64,000 bases of DNA, taken from Agreia bicolorata (lineage in GTDB: Bacteria; Actinomycetota; Actinomycetes; Actinomycetales; Microbacteriaceae). This document shows, one piece after another, positions 36,208 through 43,710 of the stretch (its first letter is position 1; the number at the start of each line of letters is the position of its first letter). Location of the stretch: the NCBI RefSeq assembly GCF_000938265.1, contig NZ_JYFC01000001.1, positions 62,001-126,000 of the forward strand, given 5' to 3'. The notes beneath the pieces are model-generated. The model saw only the letters and a program-made list of their open reading frames with translations, was not told where the DNA came from and did not search any database. A program made the translations under genes and the position numbers.

Positions 36208-38292
36208 GTGGCATCGGCCGACTATTCCGCACGGCATCTGTCTGTACTCGAGGGTCTCGAGGCTGTGCGCAAGCGCCCTGGCATGTACATCGGGTCAACG
36301 GATTCCCGCGGACTCATGCACTGCGTGTGGGAGATCATCGACAACTCTGTCGACGAGGCCTTGGGCGGCCATGGCTCGGAGATCGAGATTCAGTTGCACG
36401 CCGACTCGAGCGTCGAGGTTCGTGACCGTGCGCGCGGCATCCCCGTCGATATCGAGCCGAAGACCGGCCTGTCGGGCGTCGAGGTCGTGTTCACCAAGCT
36501 GCACGCCGGTGGAAAGTTCGGCTCCGGCTCGTATGCGGCATCCGGTGGCCTGCACGGCGTCGGCGCATCTGTCGTCAACGCCCTCTCAGAACGCCTCGAT
36601 GTCGAGGTCGACCGTGACGGCAAGACCTATGCCATGTCGTTCCACCGTGGAGAACCAGGTGTCTTCGACGACTCCGGTTCGACTCCGACACCGGATGCCC
36701 CGTTCACACCGTTCGAGAACGGCAGCGAGCTGCGCATCGTCGGCAAGGTCAAGCGCGGCGTCACCGGAACACGCATCCGCTACTGGGCAGACCGACAGAT
36801 CTTCAGTTCGACGGCGCGCTTCCAGACAGAGGAACTCTTCGACCGGGCCCGCCAGACGGCGTTCCTCGTGCCCGGCCTATCGATCGGCATCACTGACGAA
36901 CGCGGTGAGGAAGTTCGTCGCGACGCGTTCCGGTTCGACGGTGGGATCGCGGAGTTCGTCGAACACCTCGCAACAGATTCCGGTGTGACCGAGACGTGGC
37001 GGCTTCAGGGCAGCGGGTCGTTCACCGAAACCGTGCCCGTGCTCTCGGCTCAGGGCGCCATGGTTCCTACCGAGCTCAGCAGGGAATGCGAGGTCGATCT
37101 GGCCCTGCGCTGGGGAACGGGCTACGAGACGACGTTCCGCAGCTTCGTGAACATCATCGCGACACCCAAGGGTGGAACCCACCAGGCCGGATTCGAGGCC
37201 GGGCTTCTCAAGTTTCTGCGACAGACCGTGGAGGCGAATGCGCGCCGACTCAAGGCGGGAACCGACAAGCTCGAGAAAGACGATGTTCTCGCCGGGCTCA
37301 CAGCTGTTCTCACGGTGCGGCTGCCCGAGCCACAGTTCGAAGGGCAGACGAAGGAGATTCTCGGAACTCCGGCTGTGCGCAACATCGTCTCGCAGGTCGT
37401 CGCGAAGGGCCTGAAAGAGAGATTCGAGTCGACGAAGCGCGACGACAAGGCTCAGACGGCTCTGGTGCTCGACAAGGTCGTCGCCGAGATGAAGTCGCGC
37501 ATCTCCGCTCGGGCGCACAAAGAGACTCAGCGTCGCAAGAATGCACTCGAGTCGTCTTCTCTGCCGGCGAAGCTCGTCGACTGCCGCTCCAACGATGTCG
37601 CCTTGAGCGAGTTGATGATCGTCGAGGGTGACTCGGCGCTGGGAACGGCGAAGCTGGCCCGCAACAGCGAATTCCAGGCGCTGCTGCCGATTCGAGGCAA
37701 GATCCTCAACGTTCAGAAGGCGTCTGTTTCGGACATGCTCGGCAATGCCGAATGCGCCTCGATCATTCAGGTCATCGGCGCAGGGTCGGGGCGCTCGTTC
37801 GACCTCTCGACCGCCCGCTACGGCAAGATCATCCTGATGAGCGACGCCGATGTCGATGGGGCACACATCAGAACTCTGCTGCTCACGCTGTTCTTCCGCT
37901 ACATGAGGCCACTCGTCGAAGACGGGCGGGTATACGCGGCTGTGCCCCCTCTGCACCGCGTGGTCGTCATGAATCCGGGAACGAAGCCCAACGAGACGAT
38001 CTACACCTACTCGGAGACGGAACTGCACACACTGCTCGCGCAGCTCGACAAGGCCAAGAAGCGCTACCAGGATCCGATTCAGCGCTACAAGGGTCTCGGC
38101 GAGATGGATGCCGATCAGCTCGCGACGACCACCATGGACAAGCGCCACCGCACCCTGCGCCGGGTCGGGGTCAGCGACGCGGAGCGGGCGGAGCGCACGT
38201 TCGACCTGCTGATGGGAGACGATGTGGCACCGCGCAAGGAGTTCATCATCGCCGGCTCCGAAGGAATGTCGCGGGAGCGCATCGATACCTGA
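36208..38292 (+). CDS. parE: DNA topoisomerase IV subunit B
   Basis: The 694-residue ATPase subunit has the GHKL nucleotide site (GLEAVRKRPGMYIGS, WEIIDNSVDEAL, GGLHGVGASVVNALS) and the Toprim domain with IVEGDSALGTAKLARN, LPIRGKILNVQKAS and MSDADVDGAHI. The Toprim EGDSALGTA replaces the gyrase EGDSAGGSA, a change seen in ParE-type proteins. TTTTGGAGAA precedes a GTG start. It ends 33 bases before the convergent racemase operon. Confidence 0.92.
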   Translation: MASADYSARHLSVLEGLEAVRKRPGMYIGSTDSRGLMHCVWEIIDNSVDEALGGHGSEIEIQLHADSSVEVRDRARGIPVDIEPKTGLSGVEVVFTKLHAGGKFGSGSYAASGGLHGVGASVVNALSERLDVEVDRDGKTYAMSFHRGEPGVFDDSGSTPTPDAPFTPFENGSELRIVGKVKRGVTGTRIRYWADRQIFSSTARFQTEELFDRARQTAFLVPGLSIGITDERGEEVRRDAFRFDGGIAEFVEHLATDSGVTETWRLQGSGSFTETVPVLSAQGAMVPTELSRECEVDLALRWGTGYETTFRSFVNIIATPKGGTHQAGFEAGLLKFLRQTVEANARRLKAGTDKLEKDDVLAGLTAVLTVRLPEPQFEGQTKEILGTPAVRNIVSQVVAKGLKERFESTKRDDKAQTALVLDKVVAEMKSRISARAHKETQRRKNALESSSLPAKLVDCRSNDVALSELMIVEGDSALGTAKLARNSEFQALLPIRGKILNVQKASVSDMLGNAECASIIQVIGAGSGRSFDLSTARYGKIILMSDADVDGAHIRTLLLTLFFRYMRPLVEDGRVYAAVPPLHRVVVMNPGTKPNETIYTYSETELHTLLAQLDKAKKRYQDPIQRYKGLGEMDADQLATTTMDKRHRTLRRVGVSDAERAERTFDLLMGDDVAPRKEFIIAGSEGMSRERIDT

Positions 38293-38325: not shown

Positions 38326-39399
38326 TCAGATGAGGCGGCGAGGAACGCGCGGGTTCAGGCGCACGACCAATTCCTCGGACATGGTGTCCGTGGCGTTGCC
38401 CCACTCCTGAAGCGTCGGCTCCCCCGCGCTGCCGTCACCCCACACGGTCACGAGATCGCCGACGATGACATCGCTCTCGTCGCCGAGATCGATCCAGGTG
38501 CGGTCCACCTCGAGCGGCAAGACGATCGGATGCCGCCGGCCGCGGACGGCCACACCGATGCGGCCGGGGGCAAGTGTCGAGATGCCATCGGCGAAGCCGA
38601 GGTCGATCGACGCCCGGCGGCGGCCATCCGGAAGTACGTCGATGGCCGTGACGGGGGCGCGCATCGTCATCACCTGACGCAGCCCCATGCTCTCGGCGCT
38701 CGGACCATCGCCAGGCGGAAGGCCGTAGACGAAGGCGCCGAACCGCACGAGATCGAAGCGCGCATCGGATCGCGCGAACCCGGCAGCACTGGCCGCCAGG
38801 TGCCGCAGAGGCACCCGCACACCGAGTTCACGCGCGACGTCTACGGCCTTCTCGAAGCGGGCGATCGAGAGCGAATCCTCGTGGTCATTGGCCTCGGCGA
38901 TATGAGTCCAGACGGCGACGATCTCGACGATCCCCTGATTCTCCAGCGCCCGTGCGTGTGAAACGAGCCCGGGCCAGTCGTCGACTGTCGCACCGTTGCG
39001 GTGCAGCCCCGTGTCGATCTTGAGGTGAACCCGAGCGGCGTCCGGGCGCCCAGCGGCGGAGATGGTGTGCAGTTGATCGACGGTCGAGATGCCGAGGTCG
39101 ATCGAGGCCGAGATGGCAGGCCCGAGGTCTTCTGCAGGATCGAGTAGCCAGGCGAAAATCCGCGTCGGAGGCGAGATGCCTGCCTCGCGCAGCGCCAGCG
39201 CGGTTGGCACGTCGAGAGCACCGATCCACGAGACGCCTGCGTCGACAGCGGTTCGGGCCACATCGACGAGTCCGTGCCCGTACGCATCGTTCTTGACCAC
39301 GACCATGACCTGAGACGGTGCCACACGCGTGGTGAGCACACCGAGGTTGTGGCGCAGCGCCCCGAGATCGATGAGAATCTCGCTGGTGGAGGTCGTCAT
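38326..39399 (-). CDS. alr: Alanine racemase homologue A: has PLP lysine, lacks catalytic tyrosine
   Basis: This 357-residue protein has the full racemase barrel: LIDLGALRHNLG, the PLP lysine (Lys36) in VVVKNDAYGHG, HLKIDTGLHRNG, and VRFGAFVYGLPPG with the pyridine-contacting Arg. In the C-terminal domain, however, the loop that normally reads GVSYGxT is missing: APVTAIDVLPDGRRRASIDLGFADG joins the strands directly, so the second catalytic base (Tyr265 in Geobacillus Alr) is absent, and GRxxMD is replaced by PLEVDRTW. The ATG overlaps the upstream gene's stop (ATGA). The upstream gene carries the missing tyrosine. Substrate is unproven. Confidence 0.85.
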   Translation of the reverse strand: MTTSTSEILIDLGALRHNLGVLTTRVAPSQVMVVVKNDAYGHGLVDVARTAVDAGVSWIGALDVPTALALREAGISPPTRIFAWLLDPAEDLGPAISASIDLGISTVDQLHTISAAGRPDAARVHLKIDTGLHRNGATVDDWPGLVSHARALENQGIVEIVAVWTHIAEANDHEDSLSIARFEKAVDVARELGVRVPLRHLAASAAGFARSDARFDLVRFGAFVYGLPPGDGPSAESMGLRQVMTMRAPVTAIDVLPDGRRRASIDLGFADGISTLAPGRIGVAVRGRRHPIVLPLEVDRTWIDLGDESDVIVGDLVTVWGDGSAGEPTLQEWGNATDTMSEELVVRLNPRVPRRLI

Positions 39400-40148
39400 G
39401 CGTAACTCCGAACGATTCTGTCGCCCAGCGACGCGGTGACCTCCGCGGCGGTCTTTCCCAGGCTTGCGGCCCACGAAACCGGAGACGGATACCCCTTGGC
39501 CTCGTCTCCGAAGAGCACGACCTCGTCGCCCGGTGAGACAGGATTCTCGCCGACGTCGAGCATAAAGACGTCCATAGCCACTCGCCCGGCGATGGGATGG
39601 GTGGAGCCGGCGAACCATGCCCGCCCGCCGTTGCACGCGTGCCGGTCGATGCCGTCGCTGTAGCCGAGGCACACCATGGCGAGCGTCGTCGGTCGAGCGG
39701 TGCGATAGACGTATCCGTATGAGACGCCTTCGTCGGCGCTGACCCTCTTGATCGAGAGAACACAGGCAGAGAGAGTCATCGCGGGTAGAAGACCACGACC
39801 CCGAGGATCGGGGACAGTGGCTGTGTCGAGCCCGAAGATCTCGGGGCCGATGAGCCTCGCCTCGGCGGAGTTGAACTGGGAACGCAGGATGGCGGGAATC
39901 GAGACGCCCGATTCGCGAACGGCTCGCGCGTCGTCGTCGTGCGACACCAGAAAAGCATCGATCGCCTCGCCGTCGAGGGCCGCGGCAATGGCCACTGCAC
40001 CGTGACCGTATGCATCGCCGCGCAGATCGACCACGATTCCGTGCGGCGACGCTTCAACGATCAGGATGCGCGCATTGCCGCGTACGATCGCCAGATCGAT
40101 CGCCGCGCGGCGCGGCGGCGACGGGTGAGTCGTGAGAGCTGACGACAT
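39396..40148 (-). CDS. Alanine racemase homologue B: half barrel, lacks PLP lysine, keeps catalytic tyrosine
   Basis: The 250-residue protein has the first part of a racemase barrel (about 13-105), but the PLP lysine is Arg43 in DLRGDAYGHG and the segments for roughly strands 5-8 are missing. The C-terminal domain (about 123-250) is complete: MTLSACVLSIKRV, the catalytic Tyr144 in GVSYGYVYRT, LGYSDGIDR and GRVAMDVFMLDVG. It cannot form its own PLP enzyme but could donate Tyr144 to homologue A. The ATG is two bases after the gatD stop; an in-frame GTG at 40151 is possible. Confidence 0.85.
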   Translation of the reverse strand: MSSALTTHPSPPRRAAIDLAIVRGNARILIVEASPHGIVVDLRGDAYGHGAVAIAAALDGEAIDAFLVSHDDDARAVRESGVSIPAILRSQFNSAEARLIGPEIFGLDTATVPDPRGRGLLPAMTLSACVLSIKRVSADEGVSYGYVYRTARPTTLAMVCLGYSDGIDRHACNGGRAWFAGSTHPIAGRVAMDVFMLDVGENPVSPGDEVVLFGDEAKGYPSPVSWAASLGKTAAEVTASLGDRIVRSYA

Positions 40149-40150
40149 CA

Positions 40151-40900
40151 CTAGATCGTCGTGAAGACGCTCTTGACGTTCGCGACGATGACTTCTCGTG
40201 ACTTGGCGGCCAGGCGATCGAGCTCCGCGTGTGCCGTGGACGGTGCATAGGCCACGTCTCGGCGTTCCAGCGCGGCTCGGATGATCGCGTCGCTGAGCGA
40301 AGGGTTCAACGGAAGCACCGGCCCCTTCGTCTGGGTCGCGACGGATGAGCCTGAGATGACGCCTTCGCGTCCGTTGCCATTGCCACCACCGGAGGTGACG
40401 ACGCCGAGCGGTACCGCCCCGGCCTCGAGGTTCCATTCCGATGCGTTGTCTTCGAAGCCCACGACGGTTCCGTGCGCCGACTCGACGACGATGTATCCGA
40501 CCTGACGAGGAACTCCGCGTCGCGCCGAGAACGGGAAGATTCCCACTCCGTCGAGAACTGTCCCATCGGCGAGCGTGATGCCTCCTCCGAGGAGCTCGGC
40601 TCCGGCTCCGACGGCGAAGAAGGGCACACCGTCGTCTGCGAGCGAGCGGAGAGCGTCGGCATTCTCGATGAGGTCGGCGTGCACCGCGCGTACAGCGGAG
40701 ATCGGACCGTTGCCGATCACGACGATGTCGGCATCTTTCGGAACGCGTCGACCGATCGTGTGCTGCACGACGTCGACGCGATGACCCGCCCGTTCGAGAC
40801 GAGCCCGCAGCGCAGTGACGTTGCCGCGCTCACCGCTCGCCTCGAGGTGGTCAGGGTACAGCTCGAGAATCGAGACGGACTGTGCGGATGACGAACTCAA
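40151..40900 (-). CDS. gatD: GatD-like class I amidotransferase homologue without catalytic Cys or His
   Basis: GatD normally supplies ammonia to MurT to amidate D-Glu of lipid II. This 249-residue homologue keeps the fold (ILELYPDHLEASGERGNV, VVIGNGPISAVR, LDGVGIFPFSA) but the nucleophile elbow reads FFAVGAGAELLG, with Gly98 where ICGGYQ has Cys, and the His of YLHGPLLPKNP is Lys192 in TQTKGPVLPLNP. The protein contains no Cys at all. It starts at a TTG overlapping the murT stop (TTGA), with GGAGG 7 nt upstream. It is very likely glutaminase-dead but intact and expressed. Confidence 0.85.
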   Translation of the reverse strand: MSSSSAQSVSILELYPDHLEASGERGNVTALRARLERAGHRVDVVQHTIGRRVPKDADIVVIGNGPISAVRAVHADLIENADALRSLADDGVPFFAVGAGAELLGGGITLADGTVLDGVGIFPFSARRGVPRQVGYIVVESAHGTVVGFEDNASEWNLEAGAVPLGVVTSGGGNGNGREGVISGSSVATQTKGPVLPLNPSLSDAIIRAALERRDVAYAPSTAHAELDRLAAKSREVIVANVKSVFTTI

Positions 40901-42177
40901 AACGAGACCTCCATGTCGCCGTAACCGATGATCTTTCTCGCGAGCATCATCTGCTCATAGTTGACGACCCACGTCTTATGGCCCGTTGCGGGTGCCGGAA
41001 GAGCGCGCATCAGTTCGATGGCCTTCTTGAGGTCTGGTTCGATCGTGCCGACGGGAATTCCCTCGTGCTCGAGGCGGAGCGCGAACTGCCATGCCTTCGC
41101 GCCCGTGAGCACATCGACGTGATCGAGTTGCACGAAATCGATGTCGTAGAGCCAGGAGACGTCGGGAGTGCCCTCGTCGATGGCGACCATGACCTGCTCG
41201 GGTGCTGCAGGAAGGGCGTCGAGATTGAGCTGGAGACTCGCGGCGTTCTTGAACATAACGAACTCCACCTTCTCGTCGCCGAAGTCGAGCAACTCGCCGC
41301 GCCCATAGGCCGGCGTCATCGATGAGAATGCTGCCGATGCCTTCGCGAGGTCGAATTCGGTGCCGAGCAGCTGCGCCGCCGTCGCGAGTGCCGCCGCGGC
41401 ATCGATGCCGTAGTGCAGTCCCTTTGCGGGGAGCGCGATGTCGGCCAGTTCGCCCCCGACCCGAATGCGGGCTCCGGTGCTGTCCCACGACTCGAGTTCG
41501 GCCAGCGCATCGAGCGGCGCCGTCGACGCCTCTTCGCGGTGGTTCGCCGCGTTGAAGAGGCCGTGCGCGGAGTCGGCGACCAATTTCGCCGAGGCCCCGA
41601 AGTAGGTGACATCGGGAACAACGGCTGCCTTCTTCGTGAGGATCTCGCCGATCTTCGACAAATAAGCGTCGTCGCGGTTGCTGATGACGTGCTTCGTCGC
41701 CACCGCCGCCGTGTCGAGCATCATGTCGGCGACGACCTCGGTCTCGAAGAACCTATAGAGCTGGTCGACCTGCACGTTGAGCATGAGAATCGTCGACGGC
41801 AGCAGGGTCTTCGACAGCTCGAGCGCGAACGCCTCGTCGACTTCGAGGATTCCGATGTCCGCCTTCAGCTTTGCGGTAACGCTGACCTCGGACAGAAGGG
41901 CCGACGAAATTCCCTGCGGAAGGTTCGCCCCCGATGGGTTGGTGAACACCGTGAGGCCGTGCCCACGGAGAACCTCCGTGAGCATGTGGGTGGTCGTCGA
42001 CTTGCCATTGGATCCGAGGACGAAGACGACGCCGTATTCGAACTGGGCGACCACATTCTTGATGAAGCCGGGCGCCATCTTGTTGACGATGTACCCGGGC
42101 AGCGCCGATCCGCCGCCGCGGGCCCGGGTGACGGCCCGAACCGCGCGACCGACGAGGACGGGCGCGATATAACGCAT
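40897..42177 (-). CDS. murT: MurT-like Mur ligase homologue lacking the zinc ribbon
   Basis: A 426-residue Mur-ligase-fold protein. The P-loop is VFVLGSNGKSTTTHML (about 52-66), followed by NPSGANLPQGI and LEVDEAFALE, and the C-terminal MurT (DUF1727) domain with PDVSWLYDIDF near 345. Canonical MurT carries a Cys4 zinc ribbon in the central domain; here the corresponding region (about 195-255) has none and the protein has no Cys. The usual KNPAG and NDN motifs read KNAAS and DEG. It probably still activates the D-Glu carboxyl with ATP, but the nucleophile may differ. It starts 7 bases after the sigA stop. Confidence 0.85.
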   Translation of the reverse strand: MRYIAPVLVGRAVRAVTRARGGGSALPGYIVNKMAPGFIKNVVAQFEYGVVFVLGSNGKSTTTHMLTEVLRGHGLTVFTNPSGANLPQGISSALLSEVSVTAKLKADIGILEVDEAFALELSKTLLPSTILMLNVQVDQLYRFFETEVVADMMLDTAAVATKHVISNRDDAYLSKIGEILTKKAAVVPDVTYFGASAKLVADSAHGLFNAANHREEASTAPLDALAELESWDSTGARIRVGGELADIALPAKGLHYGIDAAAALATAAQLLGTEFDLAKASAAFSSMTPAYGRGELLDFGDEKVEFVMFKNAASLQLNLDALPAAPEQVMVAIDEGTPDVSWLYDIDFVQLDHVDVLTGAKAWQFALRLEHEGIPVGTIEPDLKKAIELMRALPAPATGHKTWVVNYEQMMLARKIIGYGDMEVSF

Positions 42178-42184
42178 CCGCGGC

Positions 42185-43510
42185 CTACTCGAGGTAGTCG
42201 CGCAGAGACTGCGACCGCGACGGGTGGCGAAGCTTCGCCATCGTCTTCGACTCGATCTGCCGGATGCGCTCACGGGTGACCCCGAATGTGTCACCGATCT
42301 GGTCGAGCGTCTTCGGCATGCCGTCACCGAGGCCGAAGCGCATGCGGATGACGCCGGCTTCGCGCTCGGAGAGCGAATCGAGAAGCGACTCGAGCTGCTT
42401 CTGCAGCATCGTGAAGCCCACGGCGTCGGCCGGGACGACCGCCTCAGTGTCTTCGATCAAGTCGCCGAACTCGCTGTCGCCGTCTTCACCCAGAGGCGTG
42501 TGCAGCGAGATGGGCTCGCGTCCATACTTCTGCACCTCGACGACCTTCTCAGGGGTCATGTCGAGCTCGCGCGACAGTTCTTCGGGCGTGGGTTCGCGTC
42601 CCAGATCCTGAAGCATCTGGCGCTGCACGCGGGCGAGCTTGTTGATGACCTCGACCATGTGCACCGGAATACGGATGGTGCGGGCCTGGTCGGCCATCGC
42701 CCGGGTGATCGCCTGCCGGATCCACCAGGTCGCGTAGGTGGAGAACTTGAAGCCCTTGGTGTAGTCGAACTTCTCGACCGCACGGATAAGGCCCAGGTTT
42801 CCCTCCTGGATGAGGTCGAGGAACTGCATTCCACGGCCCGTGTAGCGCTTCGCCAGGCTGACGACAAGACGCAGGTTGGCGCCGAGCAGGTGGCTCTTGG
42901 CGCGAGCGCCGTCGCGGGCGACCCACTGGAGCTCACGACCGTAGGCCGACTTCTTCTCTGCCTCGCTCATCGTCGACATGGTGTCTTCGGCGAAGAGCCC
43001 CGCTTCGATACGCATGGCGAGTTCGACCTCTTCGGCCGCGTTCAGAAGCGCGACCTTGCCGATCTGCTTCAAGTAGTCCTTGACAGGATCGGCCGTGGCA
43101 CCGGTGATCGCGGTCGAGTAGACCGGAACATCGCTATCGTCGTCGGCGTCGGAGATGACCAGGGCTCCTGCGGGCAGAACGATCTCAGCCGCGGGCTTGG
43201 GCGATCCGTCGTCGGACTCGTCGTCGGTCGTGGTCTCGTCTTCGTCGACGACGACCTCGATGACGACGCCTGCCTCGGCATCGTCGTCATCAGCGCCGGG
43301 GCCGTCGGCTTCAGCGGCGGCCTTGGCCTTCTTAGCGGCCGCAGCGGTCTTCGCCGCAGCAGCCTTCGTGGGAGCTTTTGGTGCCTTCGTCGCGGGCGCC
43401 TTGGCAGCCGCAGCCTTTGCGGCAGCGGCCTTCGTCACCGGCTTTGCTTTCTCGGCAGCAGGCTCGTCAGCGACGGGTTCGAGTGTTGTGGTTGATTTGC
43501 GGGTGGCCAT
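42185..43510 (-). CDS. sigA: Principal RNA polymerase sigma factor (SigA/HrdB type)
   Basis: The 441-residue sigma-70 protein has an Ala/Lys/Pro-rich N-terminal tail (about 15-60), an acidic stretch, then region 1.2 ([17 protein letters not shown]), region 2 ([20 protein letters not shown] and [17 protein letters not shown]), region 3 and region 4 ([20 protein letters not shown]). This is the full-length group 1 architecture. AAAGGTGA precedes the ATG at 43510. murT starts 7 bases after its stop, so the cell-wall genes can be read through from it. Confidence 0.95.
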
Positions 43511-43710
43511 ACGATCACCTTTCACGCCGGTCTCACCGGGTGGATTCGACTCTCATGAGCCGATGCCAATTGGAGGCTGGAGTTGTTTTCTGACATTACT
43601 AAGACCCATGTCAAGTGCTGGTTTCTTTTGTGTCTGGTTGGCCAGACACCCTGCACAAGAACGGGTCTCGATTCTCAATTATTGCACGGATTGCAGAGCG
43701 GCCCCTCCGC
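43511..43710. other. sigA upstream region with an inverted repeat
   Basis: No gene seen. An 8-bp inverted repeat with a 4-base loop (GTGTCTGG/CCAGACAC, 43630-43649) lies about 120 bases before sigA. TTGACA occurs on the minus strand at 43614-43609, but no convincing -10 follows at the usual distance. Confidence 0.45.

Follow-up and report, generated by a model that had tools for sequence, protein, structure and literature searches.

The closest described relatives of the two proteins considered here are the alanine racemases (Alr; 1VFH, 1XFC, 1SFT), PLP enzymes of fold type III, which they resemble in their domains, in their active-site residues and in the predicted two-base chemistry of a lysine and a tyrosine. 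In Alr, the lysine works with the tyrosine of the other subunit, the active site combining one subunit's barrel with its partner's C-terminal domain (PMC3485190), an arrangement which the two proteins would share, and the enzyme was described as active only as a dimer (PMC2743695). Following PMC3485190, residues acting in the lysine's own subunit are designated cis, and residues reaching into the partner's site are designated trans. The known alanine racemases are homodimers with two sites, whereas in the pair from Agreia bicolorata, designated A and B, the lysine and the tyrosine are located on different proteins, and only one site per pair appears able to form. The lysine racemase Lyr and the broad-spectrum racemase Bar are similar to A in that Tyr354 is replaced, and they were reported to accept basic amino acids (PMC3485190). 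However, Lyr and Bar carry Thr or Ala at this position, while A carries Asp or Glu, and both are homodimers with Lys as well as Tyr.

Among other PLP enzymes, the eukaryotic serine palmitoyltransferase SPT1/SPT2 has been described as a heterodimer in which one partner is without the lysine and which presumably has a single site, while its relatives are homodimers (PMC6148460). SPT1/SPT2 is a fold-type I enzyme and unrelated to A/B. The loss reported for SPT is in SPT1, whereas A and B show complementary losses in both partners, and most of one barrel is gone. In trypanosomatid deoxyhypusine synthase and the AdoMetDC prozyme system, an impaired enzyme is combined with a dead paralogue, and both are needed (PMC3663545, PMC6221367). 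These pairs, as described there, differ from A/B in that they involve allosteric activation, include no racemase and are not encoded by tandem overlapping bacterial genes. The preliminary description of the locus knew of no split racemase of this kind, and no description of a natural split Alr was found among the titles and abstract openings listed by searches of open-licence PMC papers for split, heterodimeric or degenerate Alr and for Alr in these genera.

The A/B locus of Agreia bicolorata

The window, a stretch of 64,000 nucleotides, contains the following features at this locus:

36208..38292, plus strand: topoisomerase/gyrase B-type gene, convergent with A and a marker of the conserved locus
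38326..39399, minus strand: subunit A, 357 amino acids; barrel with the cis residues and the PLP lysine Lys36, C-terminal domain lacking the catalytic-Tyr loop
39396..39399, minus strand: ATGA overlap of the B stop and the A start
39396..40148, minus strand: subunit B, 250 amino acids; barrel stub with the lysine replaced by Arg43, complete C-terminal domain with Tyr144 and Met192
40151..40900, minus strand: GatD-like gene just upstream of B, without any cysteine and hence without a glutaminase nucleophile
40897..42327 (ORF limits; the true start is probably nearer 42105), minus strand: MurT-like ligase, far under the curated MurT cut-off
42185..43525, minus strand: principal sigma factor gene, the far flank of the conserved locus

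On the minus strand, the gene order is MurT-like, GatD-like, B and A. The positions originally given for both racemase genes were correct, including the ATGA shared at 39399-39396. Homology to the Alr-type N-terminal and C-terminal domains was identified in both proteins. In A, the Pfam domain Ala_racemase_N is complete (PF01168, 1-220/220, E 1.5e-52), and the match to Ala_racemase_C (PF00842, E 2.2e-14) begins at 31 of 127. A was said to keep the PLP lysine (Lys36 in VVVKNDAYGHG) and to have lost the loop with Tyr265, and both statements were confirmed. For B, the reported Arg43 at the lysine position (DLRGDAYGHG) and the retained Tyr144 were found again; Ala_racemase_C is complete (PF00842, E 5.9e-33), and Met192 is also kept. 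A large part of the B barrel is indeed gone (PF01168, E 1.7e-7), but the missing portion is nearer two thirds than the half first estimated, since Ala_racemase_N is covered at 1-84 of 220.

Both proteins were aligned to the Streptomyces Alr 1VFH, with residue numbers referring to the Geobacillus enzyme. In this alignment, which the preliminary description had proposed as a check, A keeps Lys36 and the equivalents of Arg136 and Arg219, and also those of His166 and Ser204. It is devoid of the Tyr265 loop and of Met312, where Val is present, and it has Glu at the Tyr354 position. Neither A nor B contains Lys and Tyr within one polypeptide; only both proteins together do. These losses of domains and residues rule out, for the window, an ordinary tandem duplication with both copies complete.

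For all four genes of A/B and of a second pair, A2/B2, which is described below, the median pN/pS within the genus was 0.22-0.35 (21 comparisons each, with synonymous differences of about 0.5), and across all comparisons the values were 0.16-0.52. By this measure, A, B, A2 and B2 look to be under purifying selection in the genus. The two frames could overlap by 4 nt in 34 of 65 B-A loci and in all seven A2-B2 loci, these being upper counts because the start codon closest to a 4-nt overlap was picked.

Split, fused and complete racemases in the family

The Microbacteriaceae are soil and plant bacteria. In a first scan, one genome per species was searched with a B-specific motif containing Arg at the lysine position. 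This identified 66 stretches, of which 52 are B-type (with L087 being a fragment only), 13 lack any match to a racemase and one, L129, is not long enough to be assigned. The named genera with B-type stretches, all of them Microbacteriaceae, are Agreia, Leifsonia, Microbacterium, Pseudoclavibacter, Gulosibacter, Salinibacterium, Protaetiibacter, Homoserinibacter, Diaminobutyricibacter and Homoserinimonas; some matches are MAGs under broader or doubtful labels. A is located beside B in 48 of the 52 B loci, and the remaining four reach the sequence end first. L111 has a broken A, spread over two frames.

A second survey, independent of the B motif, covered 150 genomes of the family by a search for the C-terminal domain and by ORF reading. 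The A/B pair was identified in 46 of them, including three of the window's genus (G000, G077 and G140), three in which one partner is cut by a contig end (G012, G112 and G124) and one, G015, in which the A domain was found by ORF comparison only. Two complete genes in tandem beside glmS, alr1 and alr2, are present in 16 genomes, and a fusion only in five. A and B are neighbours on one strand at all 72 loci with one A-type and one B-type gene resolved, some of which cover one gene twice. The order is B then A in 65 of 65 loci, and the direction relative to MurT-GatD varies between genera. The preliminary description would have counted relatives with only one of the two genes against the pair; no such genome was found in the motif scan or among the 150 family genomes. 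The presence of A/B in 46 of 150 family genomes, together with the purifying selection in the genus, argues that the complementary split is not due to chance. A frameshift or assembly error was ruled out by the recurrence of the pair, under purifying selection, in many genomes.

A/B was found together with the complete alr1-alr2 tandem in none of the 150 genomes (46 and 16; hypergeometric P 0.002, with kinship ignored, as in all genome counts given here). Because A/B and a complete alr2 were never found together, A/B has probably taken over the task of alr2.

Beside glmS, the window genome contains the second split pair, A2/B2, in an order opposite to B-A. A2 (371 amino acids) has lost the Tyr loop, and in B2 (258 amino acids) the lysine is replaced by Thr. 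In seven of the eight genomes of the genus, the Ala_racemase_C matches number exactly four and correspond to both split pairs. The remaining genome, G154 (96% complete), carries two complete genes in tandem at glmS. Its A/B site is empty, the GatD and topoisomerase ORFs being separated by only 17 bases (L189:6439-6457).

An intact Alr was not found in the window genome by profile searches with Ala_racemase_C and Ala_racemase_N, the remaining Ala_racemase_N matches being YggS and LysA. No D-amino-acid transaminase of the window genome reaches the cut-off (63.5 of 277 bits). Formation of D-Ala by such a transaminase was rejected as an explanation, with TIGR01121, applied to G000 alone, scoring far under its cut-off. 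Aminotransferase-IV matches number four in the seven split-only genomes of the genus versus two in G154. For the two short extra proteins of G000, the best matches are aminodeoxychorismate lyase models, one scoring above the curated cut-off of 273 bits (277.9) and one below (237.8). As neither an intact Alr nor a D-amino-acid transaminase over the cut-off was found, D-Ala should come from one of the split pairs. Three genomes (L160, L165 and L167) contain another complete but divergent Alr, in which Tyr43 is replaced by Phe and the Tyr354 position is occupied by His.

Natural fusions were identified at six loci. In L169, L206, L207 and L208, an A-like half, in which Lys is kept and Tyr and Met are lost, is joined in one ORF to a B-like half, in which Lys is replaced by Ser or Thr and Tyr and Met are kept; these ORFs adjoin glmS. 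At two further loci, a single reading frame combines an A-like part with a bare Tyr domain and with TsaE:

L204:2686-5055: three-part racemase/TsaE fusion
L205:3188-5452: three-part racemase/TsaE fusion

In five of the six fusion genomes the fusion is the only Alr found, all Ala_racemase_C matches of the genome lying within the fusion ORF (G020, G100, G136, G049 and G119). In the sixth, G073, the fusion is accompanied by an A/B pair and by a further Alr that looks complete. At the sequence level, the fusions are the strongest argument that both parts act together.

With respect to the origin of the split, the A barrel groups with complete alr2, and the A2 barrel groups with complete alr1. A single clade of A and A2 was rejected (p-AU 5e-65, for a selection of 15 A rows and 4 A2 rows). 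One common origin of all split forms is excluded for A versus A2, and for A, A2 and the fusions together the p-AU was 1e-49. A itself did not come out as one clade versus complete alr2 (p-AU 0.003, or 0.16 without one row). In the tree of the C-terminal domain, B2 is placed with alr2, and B makes up a separate group (87/90). Grouping of B with B2 gave a p-AU of 0.10 for this domain; when the barrel stub was added, the two came together at 79/89, placement of B2 with alr2 being equally good (p 0.49). The identity of the B2 C-terminal domain is 0.60 to complete alr2 versus 0.46 to B. A2 with the fusions gave p 0.28, and the six fusions as one clade gave p 0.56. The trees indicate that complete racemases, once duplicated, gave rise to split forms on at least two occasions, and that the second pair evolved separately from A/B, at least on the A side.

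Since the C-terminal domain of B2 is closest to complete alr2 and the A barrel is also of the alr2 type, an assembly of A with B2 is plausible, and subunits might be exchanged between the loci of the window genome (A with B2, A2 with B), so that four parts would give several racemases. This appears unlikely in view of the overlapping or adjoining frames within each pair and of the 43 sampled genomes outside the genus which have A/B without a separate B2, G073 with its fusion being among them.

Division of the active-site residues between A and B

A first residue set consisted of 52 A, 59 B and 48 complete sequences, after removal of rows cut by locus ends and of six odd or broken rows. Met312, Asp313 and His166 were assigned to the cis and trans classes that we assume for them. 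In this set, retention of the five cis barrel columns was 1.00 for A and 0.21 for B. The lysine-less subunit B retained the residues for the partner site, with the six trans columns being kept at 0.94 versus 0.19 in A. In the second pair, the trans columns were kept at 0.50 in A2 and 0.98 in B2. By the same alignments, the partition extends through the C-terminal domain too: columns 358 and 359, close to position 361 (Tyr354) and conserved in complete enzymes, showed a retention of 0.98 and 0.58, respectively, in A and of 0 in B.

The second residue set contained 48 A and 48 B sequences, 42 each from the sample outside the genus and six each from the genus, with the window's own left out. The lysine is present in 48/48 A and in 0/48 B sequences, the catalytic Tyr in 0/47 A sequences with the region present and in 48/48 B sequences, and Met in 48/48 B sequences, with the classes A, B and complete being defined partly by the very residues whose loss is counted. 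None of the ORFs had lost both Lys and Tyr, and one fragment was left over. That both losses never occur in one protein and that A lies beside B is not forced by the sorting into classes. At L053:6002-7618 (identical to L203:4002-5618), A keeps the loop with Gly replacing the catalytic Tyr, which makes it an apparent intermediate.

At the lysine position of B (n=48), Arg was found in 31 sequences, Ser in five, Gly in three, Thr in two, Ala and Asp in one each, and a gap in five. The B barrel is graded, from 113 of 125 positions in L196 (Lys to Thr) over 100-102 in L218, L219 and L222 to stubs and to none at all. Deletions of this size would fit a decaying relic, in which a dead alr2 was split by mutation and is only briefly kept. 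Such a relic is scarcely credible, since pN/pS is 0.16-0.52, the pair occurs in 46 of 150 genomes with Lys, Tyr and Met invariant in the right partners, and there are genomes whose only Alr found is a split or fused form.

Instead, we consider it highly probable that A and B form a PLP racemase which is an obligate heterodimer and in which one active site works. The A barrel would supply Lys36, forming the Schiff base and acting as one base, together with the residues holding PLP. The C-terminal domain of B would reach over with Tyr144 as the second base and with Met192, Arg169 and Tyr163, like the second subunit of a homodimeric Alr. The reciprocal site, composed of the B barrel stub and the C-terminal domain of A, would be dead. 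The sequences themselves display the losses, the conservation, the pairing, the fusions and a window genome in which no intact Alr was found; the physical assembly, the activity and the substrate of A/B are our inference. The heteromer proposed in the preliminary description is supported by the 72 of 72 neighbouring pairs, by the natural fusions and by the lack of a detectable intact Alr in the window genome. The distances of the B C-terminal domain and the A barrel are correlated with r 0.86 (partial 0.75; 16 genomes), and controls with alr1 of the same 16 genomes gave 0.65, 0.67 and 0.74.

Some observations count against the heterodimer. A2 still has half of the trans columns (0.50). Further, the residual motif D-x-R-x-D-A-Y-G-H-G of B is almost invariant, with many of the rows having been found by a motif demanding the Arg, and this is unlike the pure decay of a dead site. 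The earlier suggestion that the reciprocal site was free to decay is refined by the conserved motif, which shows that simple random decay does not describe the dead site of B. The Asp two residues before the lost lysine (40026-40028 in the window) is present in truncated B with a stub, in B2 and in the fused B-like halves with a stub.

A could also act alone, with another base in place of Tyr, and B could be a regulator or chaperone outside the active site. A keeps the PLP-binding residues, and a dead trypanosome paralogue was described to activate an impaired enzyme allosterically (PMC3663545). We regard this as improbable, because B keeps the partner-site residues Tyr and Met, for which a mere regulator would have no use, and has lost its cis residues, because the matching loop of A is gone or, in L053, is without its Tyr, and because the fused second part in L204 and L205 is a Tyr domain only. 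The distances of the B C-terminal domain and the A barrel are correlated with r 0.86 (partial 0.75; 16 genomes), and controls with alr1 of the same 16 genomes gave 0.65, 0.67 and 0.74.

Substrate and the type-B cell wall

In Alr, Tyr354 gates the size of the substrate (PMC3485190, PMC4517790), and in mutants of another Alr, charged residues at this position were reported to lower alanine racemisation (PMC4517790). Replacement of the inner-gate Tyr354, as expected of a diamino-acid racemase, is seen in A, with Asp in 27 and Glu in 20 sequences (n=47 with the position present). Complete alr2 likewise has Asp or Glu in 17/17 tandem genomes (16 of the sample and G154), and alr1 of the same 17 genomes has Tyr or Trp. 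Tyr354 is kept in 7/7 A2 sequences and in 6/6 fusions. The peptidoglycan of Agreia was described to contain L-Dab linked to D-Orn (PMC5945732). Because of the Asp or Glu in A and alr2 and of the D-Orn in Agreia walls, A/B probably makes a D-diamino acid, which would be D-Orn in the Agreia wall. Given the effect of charged residues on the racemisation of alanine, A/B may be a poor alanine racemase, and A2/B2, in which Tyr354 is kept, is probably the D-Ala maker.

At the position which we take to be that of the glutaminase nucleophile in the GatD motif, Cys was found in 0/51 aligned rows, and Ala, Gly, Thr or Ser is present instead; the window's protein is counted twice among these rows, and in three rows a Cys occurs at another place within the motif stretch. 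MurT-GatD may have become a ligase that attaches amino acids in the making of type-B walls. A function in which A/B makes D-Orn or a like amino acid, and the adjoining MurT-GatD may attach it, is on balance slightly favoured by us.

For the combined scenario, the chances appear even: an essential homodimeric racemase would have turned repeatedly, at two loci and from different paralogues, into an obligate one-site heterodimer, in some cases fused as the cell's only Alr; A/B would provide a D-diamino acid that is attached to lipid II by a glutaminase-dead MurT-GatD in type-B peptidoglycan, and the graded B barrel would record the path. To our knowledge, clean and repeated complementary-loss heteromers are rare among essential bacterial enzymes. 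Obligate heteromers of this type are central to the debate on the neutral growth of complexity, as presented in a simulation study (PMC11066126). In the Microbacteriaceae, complete tandems, graded split pairs and fusions coexist in one family, so that each step can be made and measured. A/B is a candidate source of the D-diamino acid in type-B walls, and the racemase is a drug-target enzyme to which the usual two-site homodimer would not apply. An annotation seeking one Alr protein will misjudge such genomes.
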